Shown here: one piece after another, positions 30,736 through 62,608 of the stretch
How positions within the stretch are numbered: position 1 is the first letter of the stretch
How the letters are laid out: each line of letters starts with the position of its first letter
Assembly: GCF_013375535.1 (NCBI RefSeq)
Contig: NZ_JABXJG010000002.1
Location: 1,240,001-1,304,000 of the forward strand
DNA: 64,000 nucleotides
Origin: Sphingobium sp. 15-1
GTDB taxonomy: Bacteria > Pseudomonadota > Alphaproteobacteria > Sphingomonadales > Sphingomonadaceae
Reading direction: 5' to 3'
Program-made: the position numbers and the translations under genes
The notes under the pieces: model-generated
Seen by the model: the letters and a program-made list of their open reading frames with translations, nothing else
What the model was told of the DNA's origin: nothing
The model's database searches: none

Positions 30736-31198
30736 GGCTTTTCAGCCTCGCCGATGCGGATCAGGGTCGTGATGGATGATGGCAAGGTCATGATTTCGAT
30801 TTTCGCTGGCATGGATCGAGGCCAGACTGAACTGGTTTCCGATCCTTCGGAATCGGTAAACATCAGAGCCATAGAGCCGGCAAGCGAGAGGAAAAACCGA
30901 TGGGACGTGTTCAGGACAAGGTCGTCATCGTCACTGGCGCAGGCGGCGGATTGGGCGAAGCAAGCGCGCGTCTGCTCGCCCGGGAGGGGGGCAAAGTCAT
31001 CCTCACGGATATCGATGAGGGCAGGGGAGCGCAGGTCGCCCGCGACATCGGCGAGCCGGCGCTGTTCCTGAAGCGCGACGTGCGCGATGAGGCCGGCTGG
31101 GAATCGTTGGTCGACGAAGTATGTGGTCGTTTCGGAAAACTGGACCTGCTGGTCAACAATGCCGGCGTCACGCGAATGGGCTTTCCCGACGACACATA

Positions 31199-31209
31199 TG
31201 TGGACGGCC
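31199..31209 (+). repeat. Sub-terminal inverted repeat of the IS, transposase-distal end
   Basis: TGTGGACGGCC, exact reverse complement of 32576-32586; it begins one or two bases inside the inferred element boundary. Confidence 0.85.
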
Positions 31210-31472
31210 CCCGCCTGACAATAGATTTAGCAGAGTATGACCGATCGCTTGCGTTCATATGTCCGGCCTCAAAGGTGCAGCCGCAAATGACCGCGGGCCA
31301 AGATGGTTTCCGCCACATGAGTTCCAAACAAGTTTCCGGCATGTAGTAGCCATTGCATCGTACGGAGTGTCTCACGCCCGGAATGATCGATCCCATCTGC
31401 GCATTCTATTGCAAGTTCAGGCCTCAGCTCAACACGAGTGCTTGCACATCAGCACCCCCTGTTCGCCAAGCT
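31210..31472 (-). ncRNA. Non-coding 3' region of the IS, candidate bridge RNA
   Basis: About 263 bases after the transposase stop with no convincing gene. In IS1111-type elements the bridge RNA that pairs with donor and target DNA is encoded downstream of the recombinase, which is this position. On the + strand, CACATG (31314-31319) and TCCAAACA (31323-31330) lie close together; the first matches, and the second is the reverse complement of, parts of the rebuilt target (CACATG-TTTGGA). This could reflect target-guide segments, but short matches can be chance. RNA ends cannot be placed by eye. Confidence 0.4.
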
Positions 31473-32513
31473 CTATGCCGCTACCTCGCGTAGCGGAATA
31501 CTGTTTGCCCGGTAGCGCTCGCCGGTCACCATGAGCTTCCAGGCAATGCGCGCAATCTTGTTCGCAACCGCCACGGCAACGAGCTTTGGCGGCTTGCGCT
31601 TGAGCAGTTCAAGTAGCCAGGCGTTTGCATTGTTGCCCTTTCCTGCTCGAACATGCCGTAGAAGCGCGGTGGCACCGGCCACCAGCACACTTCGCAGCAG
31701 TTCGTCACCGGCGCGTGTTATAATGCCAAGCCGGACCTTGCCGCCGGTAGAATGGTCCTTTGGTGTCAGGCCCATCCAGGCGGCAAATTGTCGCCCTGAG
31801 GCAAACAGCTCGGGCGCTGGCGTTTTCATCATGAGGAGTGACGCTCCGATTGGACCGACACCGGGGATTTCCGCCAGGCGTCGGCTGCATTCGTTGGCGC
31901 GGTGCCATGCCGCCAACTCCGCTTCGACCTCTTCGATTTGGTCCTGAAGCCGAGAATATTCCTTCGCCTGCGCGGCAAACAGGGTTCGCGCAAGCGCCGG
32001 CACAGTAGGGTCGACCGCGATACGGTCGAGCAGCGGAACGATCCGGCACTTGCCCTGGGCAGCAATCAGCCCGAACTCTGCAGCATAACCACGGATCGCG
32101 TTGACCAACTGCGTACGGGTGCGGATCAACCGATCGCGTACGCCGACCAGCATGAGCGCTGCCTGCTGCTCAGAAGTCTTGATGGGCACAAAGCGCATCG
32201 TGGGTCGGCTCATTGCTTCGCACAGGGCTTCGGCATCAGCCGCATCGTTCTTCCCGCGCTTTACATAGGGCTTCACCAACTGCGGCGCGATCAGCTTCAC
32301 TTCATGGCCGTACGACGTCAGGAGCCGCGCCAAATGGTGAGACGCCCCACACGCCTCGATAGCAATCACCGTTGGCGGCAGCTTCTCGAAAAACGCCATC
32401 ATCTCGGTACGGCGCAGCTTTTTGCGCAGGATGGGCTTCTCGGCGGCGTTGACGCCATGAAGCTGGTAAACGTGCTTTGACGTGTCGATGCCAACTCGGA
32501 TAAGATGTTCCAC
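31473..32513 (-). CDS. IS110/IS1111-family transposase (DEDD recombinase with serine domain)
   Basis: A 346-residue recombinase. The N-terminal RuvC-like DEDD domain begins RVGIDTSKHVYQLHG and includes VIAIEACGASHH and KRGKNDAADAEALCEA, giving the acidic residues. The C-terminal Transposase_20 domain contains IPGVGPIGASLL, FASGRQFAAWMGLTPKDHSTGGK and GDELLRSVLVAGATALLRH, which holds the conserved Ser. AAGGAGGA eight bases before GTG 32513 fixes the start; the longer open frame would extend out of the element into the SDR. The gene looks intact, so the element may still be mobile. Confidence 0.95.
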   Translation of the reverse strand: MEHLIRVGIDTSKHVYQLHGVNAAEKPILRKKLRRTEMMAFFEKLPPTVIAIEACGASHHLARLLTSYGHEVKLIAPQLVKPYVKRGKNDAADAEALCEAMSRPTMRFVPIKTSEQQAALMLVGVRDRLIRTRTQLVNAIRGYAAEFGLIAAQGKCRIVPLLDRIAVDPTVPALARTLFAAQAKEYSRLQDQIEEVEAELAAWHRANECSRRLAEIPGVGPIGASLLMMKTPAPELFASGRQFAAWMGLTPKDHSTGGKVRLGIITRAGDELLRSVLVAGATALLRHVRAGKGNNANAWLLELLKRKPPKLVAVAVANKIARIAWKLMVTGERYRANSIPLREVAA

Positions 32514-32575
32514 GGACGGTCTCCTCCTTGAGATTTGCAACAACCTCAACCTGGCACATTGTGATGCCGTTTGGA

Positions 32576-32586
32576 GGCCGTCCACA
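32576..32586 (-). repeat. Sub-terminal inverted repeat of the IS, transposase-proximal end
   Basis: GGCCGTCCACA, partner of 31199-31209. It lies seven bases inside the inferred element end, so the two ends are asymmetric. Confidence 0.85.
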
Positions 32587-33079
32587 CCAACATGTTTGGA
32601 GGATTTTCGCTTCATCTACGCGGTCAATGTCGAGGGAACATTCCTCGGTTGCAAGCATGCGATCAGGGCGATGGCGCGATCTGAAGGAGGATCGATCATT
32701 AACATATCGTCCATCGGCGGATTGACCGGGACGTTCGGCACCACCGCCTACAGCGCCGCGAAAGGGGCCGTGCGCGCCCTTTCCAGATCTGTAGCCGCCC
32801 ATTGCGCGCAGGCGCGGCGCGGTATCCGCTGCAATTCCATCTATCCCGCCGCGATGGACACGGACATGGTTCGGCGGGGGGCGCAGGAACTGGAGGAAAG
32901 GGGCATCGCCATGCCGCCCACCATCGCCACGACCCTGGGTACGCCCAACGACATCGGCCATGCCGTCGTCTATCTGGCTTCGGACGAATCCCGTTTCATG
33001 AACGGGGCGGAACTGGTCATCGACAATGGCATAACCTCGACGCCCGGGCAGGTGCCATAAACAACCAGCGAAGGGCGTC

Positions 33080-55332: not shown

Positions 55333-56073
55333 TCAGCCGCCGCCGTCGACGCGGATAAGCGTGCCCGTGGTGAAGCTGGAACAGGGGCTGGCCAGATAGA
55401 GGGCGGTCGTCACGATCTCTTCCGGCCTGCCCGGGCGTCCGAGGGCATTGTTCGCCGTCATCTGCCGATCGGCGGGCCAGGCCTTGGCAATGTCGGTCAG
55501 GAAAGGACCGGCGGCAATGGTGTTCACGCGAACCCGGGGCGCAAATTCATGGGCCAGCGAAAGCGACATGGCGTTGAGCGCCGCCTTGGCCCCGGAATAT
55601 GCTACGGCGCCCGGCACTGCCTTCAGCGATCCGGTCGAGGATATGTTGATGATCGCGCCGCCGTCGCCCTTCGCCATGCGATGCCCGATCTGGCTGGCAA
55701 GTCGAAACGGCCCCTTGAAATTCAGGGACAGGATCTTGTCGAACAGCTCTTCGCCCATTTCCGCGCTTGGGATGGCCGGGGACATGCCCGCATTGTTGAC
55801 GAGGACGTCGATGGCGCCGAAATGGTCATAGGCAGCCTCGATCAGCCCATCGATCTCGTTCCATTTCCCGACATGCGCCGCCACAGGGAGCGCGCGCATG
55901 CCCATTGCGCGGATGTCGGCGGCCACGGCTTCGCACGCTTCCAGCTTGCGGCTCGCTACGATGACATCGGCGCCATGGCGGGCGAAGGCGAGCGCCATTT
56001 CGCGCCCCAGACCCCTGCTGCCGCCCGTGACGAGAGCGACCTTGCCGTCGAGGCGGAAAAGGGGGTCCGTCAT
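55333..56073 (-). CDS. SDR family oxidoreductase
   Basis: A 246-residue classical short-chain dehydrogenase: TGGSRGLG (residues 16-23), NNAGMSPA, ISSTGS (Ser), YSGAK (Tyr, Lys) and TTGTLIRVDGGG at the C-terminus. ATG 56073 overlaps the TGA of the kinase gene and has GGAG eight bases upstream. It is the last gene of an acyl-CoA dehydrogenase/kinase/SDR operon. In the Pseudomonas levulinate (lva) pathway an SDR accompanies the same kinase/dehydrogenase pair, so this one may handle the hydroxy or keto form of that substrate. Confidence 0.91.
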   Translation of the reverse strand: MTDPLFRLDGKVALVTGGSRGLGREMALAFARHGADVIVASRKLEACEAVAADIRAMGMRALPVAAHVGKWNEIDGLIEAAYDHFGAIDVLVNNAGMSPAIPSAEMGEELFDKILSLNFKGPFRLASQIGHRMAKGDGGAIINISSTGSLKAVPGAVAYSGAKAALNAMSLSLAHEFAPRVRVNTIAAGPFLTDIAKAWPADRQMTANNALGRPGRPEEIVTTALYLASPCSSFTTGTLIRVDGGG

Positions 56074-57125
56074 ATGGATTGCTCCGATAAGAGTGGGCCG
56101 CCGGACCATCGCGCGAGCTGTAGCGCGCGTTCCAGCATGCGGGGAACGCCATATTCCATGCTGGCATGGCGTTCCAGCGTGGACTGGCCAGCGAGATATC
56201 GCTGATACCAGCCCTCAAGAATCACCGCGAGCTTGAACGAGGCCAGCGCCATATAATAGGGCAGGGCGCCCACATCGAGACCGGAAGCCTGCGCATAGCG
56301 GGCTGCCATGTCCGCGCGCGGCGGGAAACCGTTCCAGTCGAGATAGGGAGCGAAACTCTCCGGCTCGCCCTCGTCCCGCCAGCTGGCGAGAAGCCAGCCC
56401 AGATCGAGCATCGGATCGCCGATCGTCGCCAGTTCCCAATCGACGATCGCGCTCAAACGCGGCGGCGTCGCGGGCGCGAACATGACGTTCACGAACTGAT
56501 AGTCCCCATGGATCAGGCTGATCTGACGGCTTTTGGGCATTTCATCGCGCAGCAGCCGTGCGAGGCGGACGAAACCGTCCAGCTTGCGGCCGCCGCTGCG
56601 GGCCAGCTGCTTTTCCCAGCGGTCGACCTGTCGCTCAAGGAAATTGTCGGGCCGCCCGAAATCCGACAGGCCAATGGCGCGCCAGTCGACAGCGTGCAGC
56701 ATCGCCAGCGCATCGACGATCTCCTCGCCCATCCGCGTCTTGGCATCGTCGTCGCGAAAGGCAGGGGGCAGGGGACTCCTCGGCGCGAATCCATCCACCC
56801 ATTCGAGCAGCGCGAAAGGCGCGCCGATCACCGAGCCGGTTTCCTCCGACGCAAGCAGACGGGCATGAGGCACGCTGGTCCGCCCCAATGCCTTGAGAAG
56901 GCGGATTTCCCGGCTGATGTCGTTGGAAGATGCGTCGACCGGGGTCATCGGTGGCCGCCTCAACGCAAGCCGCCGCGCACCATGATCGACCCGGAACAGC
57001 AGGTTGCTGAGGCCGCCACTGACCGGCGCGATGCCCAGTTCCGTCTCCCGCTCTTCAAAGACATCGTTCAGGAATGTCAGAAGGCGTGCCGGGTCGACTT
57101 TCGTGGCGGTGTCCGGGTCGATCAT
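56070..57125 (-). CDS. APH-fold phosphotransferase, ACAD10/11- and LvaA-like
   Basis: A 351-residue kinase of the aminoglycoside-phosphotransferase/choline-kinase superfamily. The N-lobe has GGLSNLLFRVD, the catalytic loop is LIHGDYQFVNVMF (H-G-D...N) and the metal motif is AIVDWELATIGDPMLDLGW. This subgroup is fused or linked to acyl-CoA dehydrogenases: in mammals in ACAD10/11, in Pseudomonas as LvaA, where it phosphorylates 4-hydroxyacyl-CoA. Here its ATG overlaps the acyl-CoA dehydrogenase stop (ATGA), so the two are coupled. Antibiotic resistance is unlikely given the context. Confidence is high on the family, moderate on the substrate. Confidence 0.88.
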   Translation of the reverse strand: MIDPDTATKVDPARLLTFLNDVFEERETELGIAPVSGGLSNLLFRVDHGARRLALRRPPMTPVDASSNDISREIRLLKALGRTSVPHARLLASEETGSVIGAPFALLEWVDGFAPRSPLPPAFRDDDAKTRMGEEIVDALAMLHAVDWRAIGLSDFGRPDNFLERQVDRWEKQLARSGGRKLDGFVRLARLLRDEMPKSRQISLIHGDYQFVNVMFAPATPPRLSAIVDWELATIGDPMLDLGWLLASWRDEGEPESFAPYLDWNGFPPRADMAARYAQASGLDVGALPYYMALASFKLAVILEGWYQRYLAGQSTLERHASMEYGVPRMLERALQLARWSGGPLLSEQSI

Positions 57126-58405
57126 GGCACACCCGCTTCGGCTTCGAGACCGAATTTGGCGATCGCTCGCGCCTTTGCATGGCTACGCAGATAGTCGGGG
57201 AACATCGTCGCGCAGGGTTCGACGCCCTTCAATATCTCCCGCGCGACGGTGACTTTGTGCACCTCTGTAGGTCCGTCCGCCAGGCCCAGCGTGTAGGAGT
57301 GGATCAGCGCGTCCGCAAAGGGCGCCTCGTCGGTGACGCCCAGCGATCCGTGCAGATGCAGCGCCCGTTCGGCGATGTCGTGCAGGACCTTGGGCATCAG
57401 CACCTTCACCGCCGCGACATTCTTGCGCAACCTGCTCCAGTCGCTTTCCCTGTCGTGGAGCCAAGCGGTCTCCAGAATGAGAAGGCGAAACTGACGAAGC
57501 TGAATCCAGCTGTCGGCGAGCTTTTCCTGTACCATCTGCTTGCGGGCAAGCAGTTCGCCCTTCGTACTGCGGGATAGGACGCGCTCGCACATCTGTTCGA
57601 AACAGTGGGTGGCCTGCGCCAGCGCGCGCATGGCGTGATGCATGCGCCCGCCCGAAAGCCGGACCTGCGCAACCTCGAAAGCCTTTCCCCGGCCGCCGAG
57701 CATGGCGTCGGCAGGAACCCGGACATCGGTCCAGCGCAGATGGGCATGGGCCTTGTCCGGTTCGCCCAGATAGCCATAATCCTTGACGATCTCGATGCCG
57801 GGCGTGTCTGCCGGTACGATGAACATCGACATTTGCGCATGCGGCGCGGCGTCGGGATCAGTCACCGCCATGACGATGTAGAAGCTTGCGAAACGGGCGT
57901 TGGACGCGAACCATTTTTCGCCATTGATGACCCACTGGTCGCCATCCAGCATAGCGGATGTCGTCATGCCCAGAGGGTCCGCGCCGCCTTGCGGCTCGGT
58001 CATGGTGAAGCAGGATACGATCCGGTTGGCCAGCAGCGGTTCCAGATAGCTTTTCTTCTGTTCCTCCGTGCCGTAATGGGCGAGAATCTCGCTATTGCCC
58101 GTGTCGGGCGCCTGCGCGCCGAAGACGATCGGGCCGAAGCGCGCTCGTCCGAATTTTTCACTCATCAGCGCCAGCTTGAGCTGGCCCATGCCTGGACCAC
58201 CCAGCTTGGGCGAAAGGTGACAGGCCCACAGGCCCCGTTGCTTCACCTCGGCCTGAAGTGGACGGACCAGCCGCTCGAACAACGGATGGGCAAGATCGTA
58301 GGGATTGTCGAGAACCAGCTCCAGCGGTTCCACCTCTTCCCTGACGAAACAGTCGATCCAGTCGAGCGTTTTCTGGAACTCCGGGTCCGTCTCAAATTGC
58401 CACAT
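57122..58405 (-). CDS. ACAD10/11-like acyl-CoA dehydrogenase-fold protein
   Basis: A 427-residue acyl-CoA dehydrogenase homologue. FTMTEPQGGADPLGMTTSA, VINGEKWFASNARFASFYIVM and FEVAQVRLSGGRMHHAMRALA are present, but the C-terminal block reads YTLGLADGPTEVHKVTVARE. The Y-E-G with the usual catalytic Glu is replaced by L-A-D-G-P. That signature marks the ACAD10/11/LvaC subgroup, which works on phosphorylated 4-hydroxyacyl-CoA rather than doing plain dehydrogenation. GGAGAGGA before ATG 58405; longer upstream reading is rejected. First gene of the operon, overlapping the kinase gene. Confidence 0.9.
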   Translation of the reverse strand: MWQFETDPEFQKTLDWIDCFVREEVEPLELVLDNPYDLAHPLFERLVRPLQAEVKQRGLWACHLSPKLGGPGMGQLKLALMSEKFGRARFGPIVFGAQAPDTGNSEILAHYGTEEQKKSYLEPLLANRIVSCFTMTEPQGGADPLGMTTSAMLDGDQWVINGEKWFASNARFASFYIVMAVTDPDAAPHAQMSMFIVPADTPGIEIVKDYGYLGEPDKAHAHLRWTDVRVPADAMLGGRGKAFEVAQVRLSGGRMHHAMRALAQATHCFEQMCERVLSRSTKGELLARKQMVQEKLADSWIQLRQFRLLILETAWLHDRESDWSRLRKNVAAVKVLMPKVLHDIAERALHLHGSLGVTDEAPFADALIHSYTLGLADGPTEVHKVTVAREILKGVEPCATMFPDYLRSHAKARAIAKFGLEAEAGVP

Positions 58406-61567: not shown

Positions 61568-62608
61568 TCAACGCGTGGCAGTCGCCCGCCCCAGCGCCGC
61601 GAAGCTGGCCAGCGTGTCCTGAATGCCATGCGCGCTGGCCGAAGCGGCATTGCCGCGGCGGAATCGGCCCAGCACCCCATGTGCAATGGCCGCGAACCGA
61701 AACATGTTGACGACAAGATAGGGCGTCAGGTCGGGGATCGCGGGACGACCCGTGGCGGCGCAATAGGCTTCCACATACTCCTCCTCGCGCATCAGGCCCA
61801 TCGCCGCGAGGTCCTGCCCGGCAAGCCCCCAATGCACGGTCGGCGGCGCGCGGAACATCATGACGTGATTGGCGAGGTCCACCAGCGGATCGCCAAGCGT
61901 GGACAGTTCCCAGTCCAGAACGGCGCTGATGCGTGGTTCCACCGGGTCGAAGATCATATTGTCGCACCGATAGTCGCCATGGACGATTCGGGCCGGGCCG
62001 CCTTCGGGGATATTGTCGTGCAGCCAGTCGGCCAGATAATCCATGTCGACCAGACGCCCGGTTTCGGGATCGGCTCTGTATTGTTTTGACCAGAGCGCGA
62101 CCTGCCGCTCGAAATAGCCGGTCGGGCGGCCATAGTCACCCAGCCCCACTGTTTCGGGATCGATCAGGTGCAGGCGCGCCAGCGTGTCGTTCATGGCCAG
62201 CATGTGATTGGCGCGGGCGGATCGACCGACATCGCGGAACATTCCGTCCCAGAAGATGCGGCCTTCCACCAGGTCCATCACATAGAACCAGCTGCCGATG
62301 ACGGCGTCGTCGGTGCAAAGGGCGCGGACAGTGGGCACCGGGAAGTCGATGGCGCCCAATGCGCGCATCACTCGCGCCTCGCGATCCACGGCATGCGCGC
62401 CCTTGAGCAATGCTCCGGCTGGTTTCCGGCGCATGACGTAGCGGGCGGACGGCGTTTCCAGCCGGAAGGTCGGGTTGGATTGGCCGCCTGCAAATTGCGT
62501 GACGGTCAAAGGGCCCTGAAATTCCGGAACATGCGCGCCGAGCCAATGCGCCAGCGCCGCCTCGTCGAAACGGGCATTGCCGCGCACAGGGACGACGGGC
62601 GTGTTCAT
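61568..62608 (-). CDS. Second APH-fold phosphotransferase, ACAD10/11-like
   Basis: A 346-residue kinase: GGQSNPTFRLETPS, YVMRRKPAG (ATP-binding Lys region), RIVHGDYRCDNMIFDP (catalytic H-G-D...N) and AVLDWELSTLGDPLVDLANHV (metal Asp). This is the canonical bacterial form of the ACAD10/11 kinase domain, and is nearer to it than the copy at 56070. Its ATG overlaps the stop of the enoyl-CoA hydratase (ATGA). No acyl-CoA dehydrogenase partner lies next to it inside the window; it may use the one at 57122 or one beyond the right edge. Confidence 0.9.
   Translation of the reverse strand: MNTPVVPVRGNARFDEAALAHWLGAHVPEFQGPLTVTQFAGGQSNPTFRLETPSARYVMRRKPAGALLKGAHAVDREARVMRALGAIDFPVPTVRALCTDDAVIGSWFYVMDLVEGRIFWDGMFRDVGRSARANHMLAMNDTLARLHLIDPETVGLGDYGRPTGYFERQVALWSKQYRADPETGRLVDMDYLADWLHDNIPEGGPARIVHGDYRCDNMIFDPVEPRISAVLDWELSTLGDPLVDLANHVMMFRAPPTVHWGLAGQDLAAMGLMREEEYVEAYCAATGRPAIPDLTPYLVVNMFRFAAIAHGVLGRFRRGNAASASAHGIQDTLASFAALGRATATR

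Follow-up and report, generated by a model that had tools for sequence, protein, structure and literature searches.

An operon of three overlapping genes

The window analysed here is a 64-kb stretch of DNA (G000:C2:1240001-1304000, whose numbering is used below) from the 5.8-Mb, three-contig genome of Sphingobium sp. 15-1. On its minus strand lies an operon in which the genes for an acyl-CoA dehydrogenase (ACAD), a kinase and a short-chain dehydrogenase/reductase (SDR) follow each other in that order. A preliminary description of the window reported a kinase overlapping a dehydrogenase with an SDR coupled behind, and predicted that the enzymes phosphorylate 4-hydroxyacyl-CoAs and remove the phosphate, as do the LvaA/LvaC pair of Pseudomonas and mammalian ACAD10/ACAD11. 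The three genes are present as described:

58405..57122, minus strand: acyl-CoA dehydrogenase P0001, ACAD10/11-type, 427 aa; Pfam Acyl-CoA_dh_N/M/1
57125..56070, minus strand: kinase P0002, APH-fold, 351 aa; Pfam APH (1.5e-43)
56073..55333, minus strand: SDR oxidoreductase P0003 (ATG at 56073, stop ending at 55333), 246 aa; Pfam adh_short

The dehydrogenase/kinase and kinase/SDR junctions each consist of one 4-base ATGA overlap, and the P0001 start (ATGTGG) is preceded by the Shine-Dalgarno-like AGGAGAGGA. The three-gene grouping is more than chance because two translational overlaps succeed each other, because an operon of identical order is found a second time in the same genome (locus L001) and because both a kinase and a P0003-like SDR accompany the dehydrogenase in 10/100 loci of the P0001 type. 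The latter set comprises 80 loci from named contigs and 20 from related genomes, and one of the ten (L135, counted among the 20) is the window's near-identical counterpart in the related genome G059. Neighbours were counted from profile and BLAST matches on open reading frames (ORFs) of at least 150 aa; a simple GC3-GC2 gene calling had missed kinases in L105, L122 and L125.

P0003 contains TGxxxGxG, NNAG and YxxxK, which we take to be the usual motifs of its family. The sequence used for comparison was the 246-aa SDR with one extra first residue (translation begun at 56076). P0003-like SDRs (at least 45% identity, within 2.5 kb) were found at 20/80 named-contig loci and 8/20 related-genome loci, on the same strand in 27 of these 28 cases. 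Only two SDRs of the P0003 type (E<=1e-60) were retrieved from the own genome, where 150 of 180 first-look candidates were scored, and each lies inside a kinase-dehydrogenase operon; the second, 56% identical to P0003, comes third in that of L001. The link of this SDR to kinase-dehydrogenase operons is thus specific.

Catalytic and phosphate-clamp residues of the dehydrogenase

The unusual active-site block LADGPTEVH pointed out in the preliminary description is confirmed, Asp377 standing where the ordinary ACADs of the alignment have Glu. The residues to be compared with ACAD11 are the following:

57275..57277, minus strand: catalytic Asp377 of P0001 (LADGP), equivalent to mouse ACAD11 D753
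57626..57661, minus strand: phosphate-clamp helix of P0001 with R249, R254, H257 and R260 (RLSGGRMHHAMR), equivalents of mouse ACAD11 R626, R631, H634 and R637
58106..58108, minus strand: Pro100 of P0001 (APDTGN), equivalent to the helix-breaking Pro463 of human ACAD11

In mouse ACAD11, Asp753 is catalytic and the phosphate is held by R626, H634 and R637, whose replacement by Ala or Leu was the most disruptive for phosphate removal (PMC12440821). Pro463 of human ACAD11 is described as a proline breaking a helix (PMC11342911). All six ACAD10/11 sites are kept in P0001 and in 105/105 fetched rows, among which are the window copy itself and the identical G059 copy. As a control, ACAD-family ORFs were scored that came from 242 kb of own-genome DNA, from eleven further own loci (L001-L010, L159) and from 99 loci of relatives. 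The full six-site set occurs in 109/163 of them, all at 437 bits or more, although 99 of these 109 come from loci fetched for their resemblance to P0001 and the scoring model derives from 13 members. The 54 ORFs without the full set all score 251 bits or less, and none falls between the two values.

The predicted structure of P0001 (mean predicted local distance difference test, pLDDT, of 86) places the clamp residues on a single helix (242-278), as is also the case in ACAD11 (PMC12440821), and shows a helix break at 95-100, around Pro100. The nearest solved structures are 4hr3, a putative acyl-CoA dehydrogenase of Mycobacterium abscessus (Z 44.9), human ACAD11 (43.7) and mouse ACAD11 (43.4), with root-mean-square deviations (rmsd) of 2.5-2.8 over 381-383 residues, whereas the best ordinary ACAD reaches Z 36.2. 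As far as the clamp and catalytic residues tell, P0001 looks like an ACAD10/11-type enzyme.

Placement of the dehydrogenase in its family

In a tree of 54 rows, obtained by a quick search with Shimodaira-Hasegawa-like approximate likelihood ratio (SH-aLRT) support only and with long branches among the ordinary ACADs, the clamp-bearing dehydrogenases form three clades and the ordinary ACADs fall outside. The ACAD11 clade (10 rows, SH-aLRT 99) holds mouse ACAD11, 4hr3, the own paralogs L001-L004 (motif RLGPGR) and four Pseudomonas rows. The P0001 clade (30 rows, SH-aLRT 99) consists of P0001 and 29 relatives; its motif is RLGGGR in 102/105 fetched rows and RLSGGR in P0001, its copy and L013. A third clade (support 100) gathers the own paralogs L005-L009, with RLSPAR or RLAPAR and IYDGP. 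The P0001 and ACAD11 clades are joined at support 84. Identity to mouse ACAD11 is 38% for P0001 and 57% for own L003 and L004. By this placement P0001 is not an ACAD11 ortholog, its clade lying beside and not inside that of ACAD11. Although 4hr3 is the best match of P0001 both by sequence (41%) and by fold, and the two have HHAMR in common, 4hr3 itself belongs inside the ACAD11 clade, and its function is 'putative' in its title.

The kinase

The catalytic loop of the kinase lies at the following position:

56487..56504, minus strand: catalytic loop of P0002 (HGDYQFVN) with D208 and N213, equivalents of mouse ACAD11 D220 and N225

P0002 is 30% identical to mouse ACAD11. The catalytic Asp and Asn, the Asp of DWE, the alphaC Arg and Glu and the equivalent of R176, acyl-CoA-contact Arg residues included, are kept in 31/31 kinases examined; the published R86 was here assigned to the Arg preceding the alphaC Glu, counted as residue 84. 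In the kinase tree, built without the three adjacent kinases identified later (L105, L122, L125), the P0002 clade (18 rows, support 100) is separate from the one that holds the ACAD11 kinase domain and from the remaining own kinases. It unites 17 of the 20 tree kinases adjoining P0001-type dehydrogenases (P0002 and its identical copy being counted in the 20) with the kinase of own locus L002; the other three, which are actinobacterial, group with 9o56. Except for L002, the grouping of the kinases thus largely follows the type of their dehydrogenase.

Aminoglycoside phosphotransferases have the same fold as the kinase, as both the Pfam APH assignment and the structural matches show, and P0001 might then be an ordinary acyl-CoA dehydrogenase next to an unrelated small-molecule kinase, for example an antibiotic kinase. 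This appears very improbable in view of the two ATGA overlaps, the recurrent pairing of the genes and the Asp that replaces the ordinary Glu base. No NCBIfam resistance model comes near its cut-off for P0002 (capreomycin 28.6 bits against 390, APH(3') 26.9 against 205), and no NCBIfam model at all reaches its cut-off for P0001, P0002 or P0004, a second kinase of the window.

By sequence, P0002 matches 9o56 (5.3e-54), 3dxp (1.2e-42), ACAD11 (3.4e-33) and, far more weakly, 9fsg (3.1e-6). By fold, 3dxp comes first (Z 32.5, rmsd 2.6, 320 residues); the ACAD11 kinase chain, which matches by sequence, is not among the best 50 fold matches listed. The 25-hydroxy steroid kinase of Sterolibacterium denitrificans ranks second (9ft5/9fsg, Z 26.9/26.7, rmsd 3.5-3.6). 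That enzyme has the same kinase fold and likewise phosphorylates a hydroxyl before phosphate elimination, but is only 18-19% identical to P0002. It acts on a tertiary alcohol, and the lyase that follows was unidentified at the time (PMC8449060). This fold match raises the alternative that the operon phosphorylates and eliminates a hydroxyl other than that at C4, for instance one that is tertiary or sits on a ring in a product of terpenoid or steroid degradation. The P450, Rieske oxygenase and 17 ACAD-family ORFs of the surrounding island (see below) and the two P450 genes within 7 kb on the Massilia plasmid would suit such a substrate. The alternative is nonetheless rather unlikely, since the ACAD11-type clamp suits a 4-phosphate on a CoA ester and the sequence matches of P0002 to 9o56, 3dxp and ACAD11 are far stronger than that to 9fsg. 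Two related leads were abandoned. The available text of PMC11061730 gave no link between the 25-phosphosteroid lyase and this dehydrogenase family. The estrogen (edc) clusters, considered because the Massilia plasmid relative adjoins P450 and indolepyruvate-ferredoxin-oxidoreductase genes, were dropped, the main text of PMC12507874 containing neither 'phosphotransferase' nor 'kinase'.

Neighbourhoods of related dehydrogenases and paralogs in the own genome

At 22/100 P0001-type loci (9/80 named contigs and 13/20 related genomes) a kinase is found no more than 1.5 kb from the dehydrogenase, always on the same strand (22/22). A P0002-like kinase was found further away (best match 34-44%) in 13/13 searched genomes devoid of an adjacent one. 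Among 100 genomes (own and relatives), a P0002-like kinase (E<=1e-45) is present in 13/13 with a P0001-type dehydrogenase against 25/87 without (Fisher p 8e-7, uncorrected for kinship).

In Pararhodobacter aggregans (L052) the order kinase-SDR-dehydrogenase is followed by genes for an acyl-CoA synthetase (ligase), a thiolase and a FadJ/FadB-type protein. In a Sulfuricaulis metagenome-assembled genome (L048) the BLAST clusters read ligase, SDR, dehydrogenase, kinase, regulator, SDR, thiolase and FadJ-type. Such ligase-thiolase-FadJ neighbours are consistent with a feeder of CoA-thioester beta-oxidation. Five plasmid loci were viewed, three of which (L177, L178, L179) have a P0002-like kinase directly downstream of the dehydrogenase. 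It is annotated as 'phosphotransferase family protein' on the plasmids of Caulobacter sp. FWC26 and Massilia putida (38 and 41% identity to P0002) and lies in an unannotated Variovorax plasmid record in the third case (41%).

The own genome encodes ten dehydrogenases with the full residue set, drawn from the three clades. For eight of them (P0001, L001-L004, L006-L008) a kinase gene is found beside the dehydrogenase gene or one SDR gene away. Ten is the highest count of the ACAD10/11 type: the next is 6 among the 100 genomes (own and relatives) and the maximum is 5 among 150 genomes of the phylum, the counts elsewhere being lower bounds, as scoring was limited to the 18 or 12 best first-look candidates of each genome and used a profile partly built from the own ten.

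Proposed reaction and comparison with known systems

Together with the residues, overlaps and recurring gene set observed above, the comparison with ACAD11 suggests that the operon is probably a dehydroxylation module for 4-hydroxyacyl-CoAs (or 4-oxoacyl-CoAs), whose carbon skeleton is left unspecified. We infer each catalytic step from the related enzymes. In an optional first step the SDR would interconvert 4-oxo- and 4-hydroxyacyl-CoA, like LvaD. The kinase would then use ATP to phosphorylate the CoA ester at its 4-hydroxyl. The dehydrogenase would grip this phosphate through R249, H257 and R260 while Asp377 takes the alpha proton; after transient use of the FAD the phosphate would be expelled and the electrons returned, giving a 2-enoyl-CoA that could enter beta-oxidation with no net oxidation. 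That the phosphate is lost by way of a transient redox change of the FAD has been proposed (PMC11342911, PMC12440821). The placement of the hydroxyl at C4 would follow from the likeness to the ACAD11 clamp, and a lactone-derived substrate, envisaged in the preliminary description, is a guess.

An ATP-driven route that removes a 4-hydroxyl was reported from Pseudomonas in 2017 (here via the citing papers PMC6692424, PMC12440821 and PMC11342911) and from mammals in 2024-2025. In the lva operon the order is lvaA (kinase), lvaB, lvaC (dehydrogenase) and lvaD (SDR); LvaD reduces levulinyl-CoA, the resulting 4-hydroxyvaleryl-CoA is phosphorylated by LvaA/B, and LvaC takes the phosphate off again (PMC6692424, citing the 2017 work). 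The claimed match to lva in families and order therefore stands in part: kinase, dehydrogenase and SDR are common to both, but the order of P0001-P0003 (dehydrogenase-kinase-SDR) differs from lvaABCD, and the operon has neither an LvaB-sized gene nor a ligase gene (LvaE), a comparison made by description and not by sequence. In a search for an lva operon to serve as yardstick, no kinase was found near the ACAD11-like dehydrogenase in 16 distinct loci of the genus of Pseudomonas sp. GM21 (12 of them viewed with about 1.5 kb of flank, one of these also with a wider one). This orphan dehydrogenase is present in 57/59 genomes of that genus (L136-L152); its best matches to own L004 reach 58-61%, and the three checked are 59-61% identical to mouse ACAD11.

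With mammalian ACAD11/ACAD10 (8v3u, 8v3v, 2wbi) the likeness concerns the catalytic Asp, the equivalents of R626, R631, H634 and R637, the Pro and, in the kinase, the equivalents of D220, N225 and R176. The differences are that dehydrogenase and kinase are here two separate polypeptides, that both fall into separate clades, that P0001 has RLSGGR instead of RLGPGR and that the HAD domain of ACAD10 has no counterpart in the operon proteins. The prediction of the same chemistry as LvaA/LvaC and ACAD10/11 thus gains from the residues conserved with mouse ACAD11 and from the ligase, thiolase and FadJ genes of Pararhodobacter, and loses in that both proteins lie outside the ACAD11 clades and are not orthologs. 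Interpretation as a 4-hydroxyacyl-CoA module seems the best available, backed as it is by the residue-level comparison, and the operon would be a divergent branch and not a copy of lva.

Several observations weigh against this interpretation. No kinase lies within 1.5 kb at 78/100 loci (23 of them with short flanks), so that the P0001-type dehydrogenase is not strictly tied to a neighbouring kinase and the linkage is patchy. APH-fold kinases are common, 27 ORFs of the own genome exceeding the Pfam cut-off, which weakens the 13/13 count of distant kinases, and the 13/13 association between kinase and dehydrogenase genomes, uncorrected for kinship, partly repeats the adjacency. On the Novosphingobium resinovorum plasmid (L180) the kinase (41% to P0002) is divergent and on the other strand, and on the Rhodococcus sp. 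008 plasmid (L176) no kinase is annotated within 12 kb. The operon itself contains no CoA ligase gene. Identity of P0001 to mouse ACAD11 is limited to 38%, against a published 56-62% between LvaC and ACAD10/11 (PMC11342911). Finally, no enzyme of tested activity was found in the literature for either the P0001 clade or that of the P0002 kinase, nor any described bacterial relative of the P0001 clade, in a search that covered few subscription papers.

The 78 loci devoid of a neighbouring kinase would also be expected if the Arg/His/Arg pocket bound a carboxylate, P0001 being a dicarboxyl-CoA dehydrogenase and the kinase serving another step; an analogous Arg exists in glutaryl-CoA dehydrogenase (PMC12440821). 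Yet Arg/His/Arg combined with an Asp base is the ACAD10/11 pattern, found in full in 0/54 of the other ACAD ORFs, and the neighbouring kinases are co-directional at all 22 loci (the divergent plasmid locus apart), which makes a carboxylate pocket distinctly improbable.

Should the 4-hydroxyacyl-CoA interpretation hold, the dehydroxylation route would be broader in bacteria than the lva operon, with three dehydrogenase clades keeping the phosphate clamp. For two of these clades no tested member was found; for the third, LvaC, which is not in the tree, is suggested by its published identity. Pseudomonas and mammals already provide examples of the chemistry; the novelty would be a separate branch of the enzyme family, whose activity here is predicted. 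If true, a function could be given to genes annotated only as 'phosphotransferase family protein' or 'acyl-CoA dehydrogenase family protein'. More tentatively, the P0001 and kinase clades might represent a separate, undescribed branch of phosphate-mediated dehydroxylation acting on branched or ring-derived gamma-hydroxyacyl-CoAs and not on fatty acids, and the own genome, which has ten dehydrogenases from the three clades and kinases beside eight of these, a toolkit of such pairs for degrading complex hydroxylated compounds; we regard this extension as conceivable and not as the likelier outcome.

Surroundings of the operon and a probable shared island

On its upstream side the operon is flanked by a divergent enoyl-CoA hydratase gene, then by genes for an Oxidored_FMN protein and an SDR (Pfam). 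The convergent gene downstream is taken, from its sequence and with no family search made, to encode a putative TonB receptor. The second APH kinase, P0004 (window 61568-62608), shares 41% identity with the kinase domain of ACAD11. Its gene overlaps one for an enoyl-CoA hydratase, and none for an ACAD10/11-type dehydrogenase lies nearby. The own kinases most similar to P0004 (53-55%) are those paired with the dehydrogenases of L006-L008; L005 and L009 of the same clade have no adjoining kinase.

The whole window lies inside a stretch of about 161 kb (G000:C2:1182125-1343019) that is mostly 98.4-99.9% identical to G059, from the same genus, except for a small number of insertions and one weaker piece (93%), whereas pieces outside the stretch are 80-92% identical. 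These identities suggest a catabolic island that the two genomes came to share recently. It contains P450, Rieske oxygenase, CoA ligase, thiolase, luciferase-like monooxygenase, beta-lactamase-fold protein and CoA-transferase genes, and 17 ACAD-family ORFs (16 besides P0001). Naming a substrate from this content was rejected, the gene mix being too varied. Besides P0002 and P0004, three further small-molecule kinase ORFs are found in the island (G000:C2:1185988-1187202, 1191045-1192634 and 1341789-1342808), one of which matches the ecdysteroid kinase-like family. The G059 copy of the island lacks two insertions of about 1.39 kb (window 31197-32589; G000:C2:1204728-1206121). Each contains most of one of two related ORFs of 370-380 aa, presumably IS110-type transposases.

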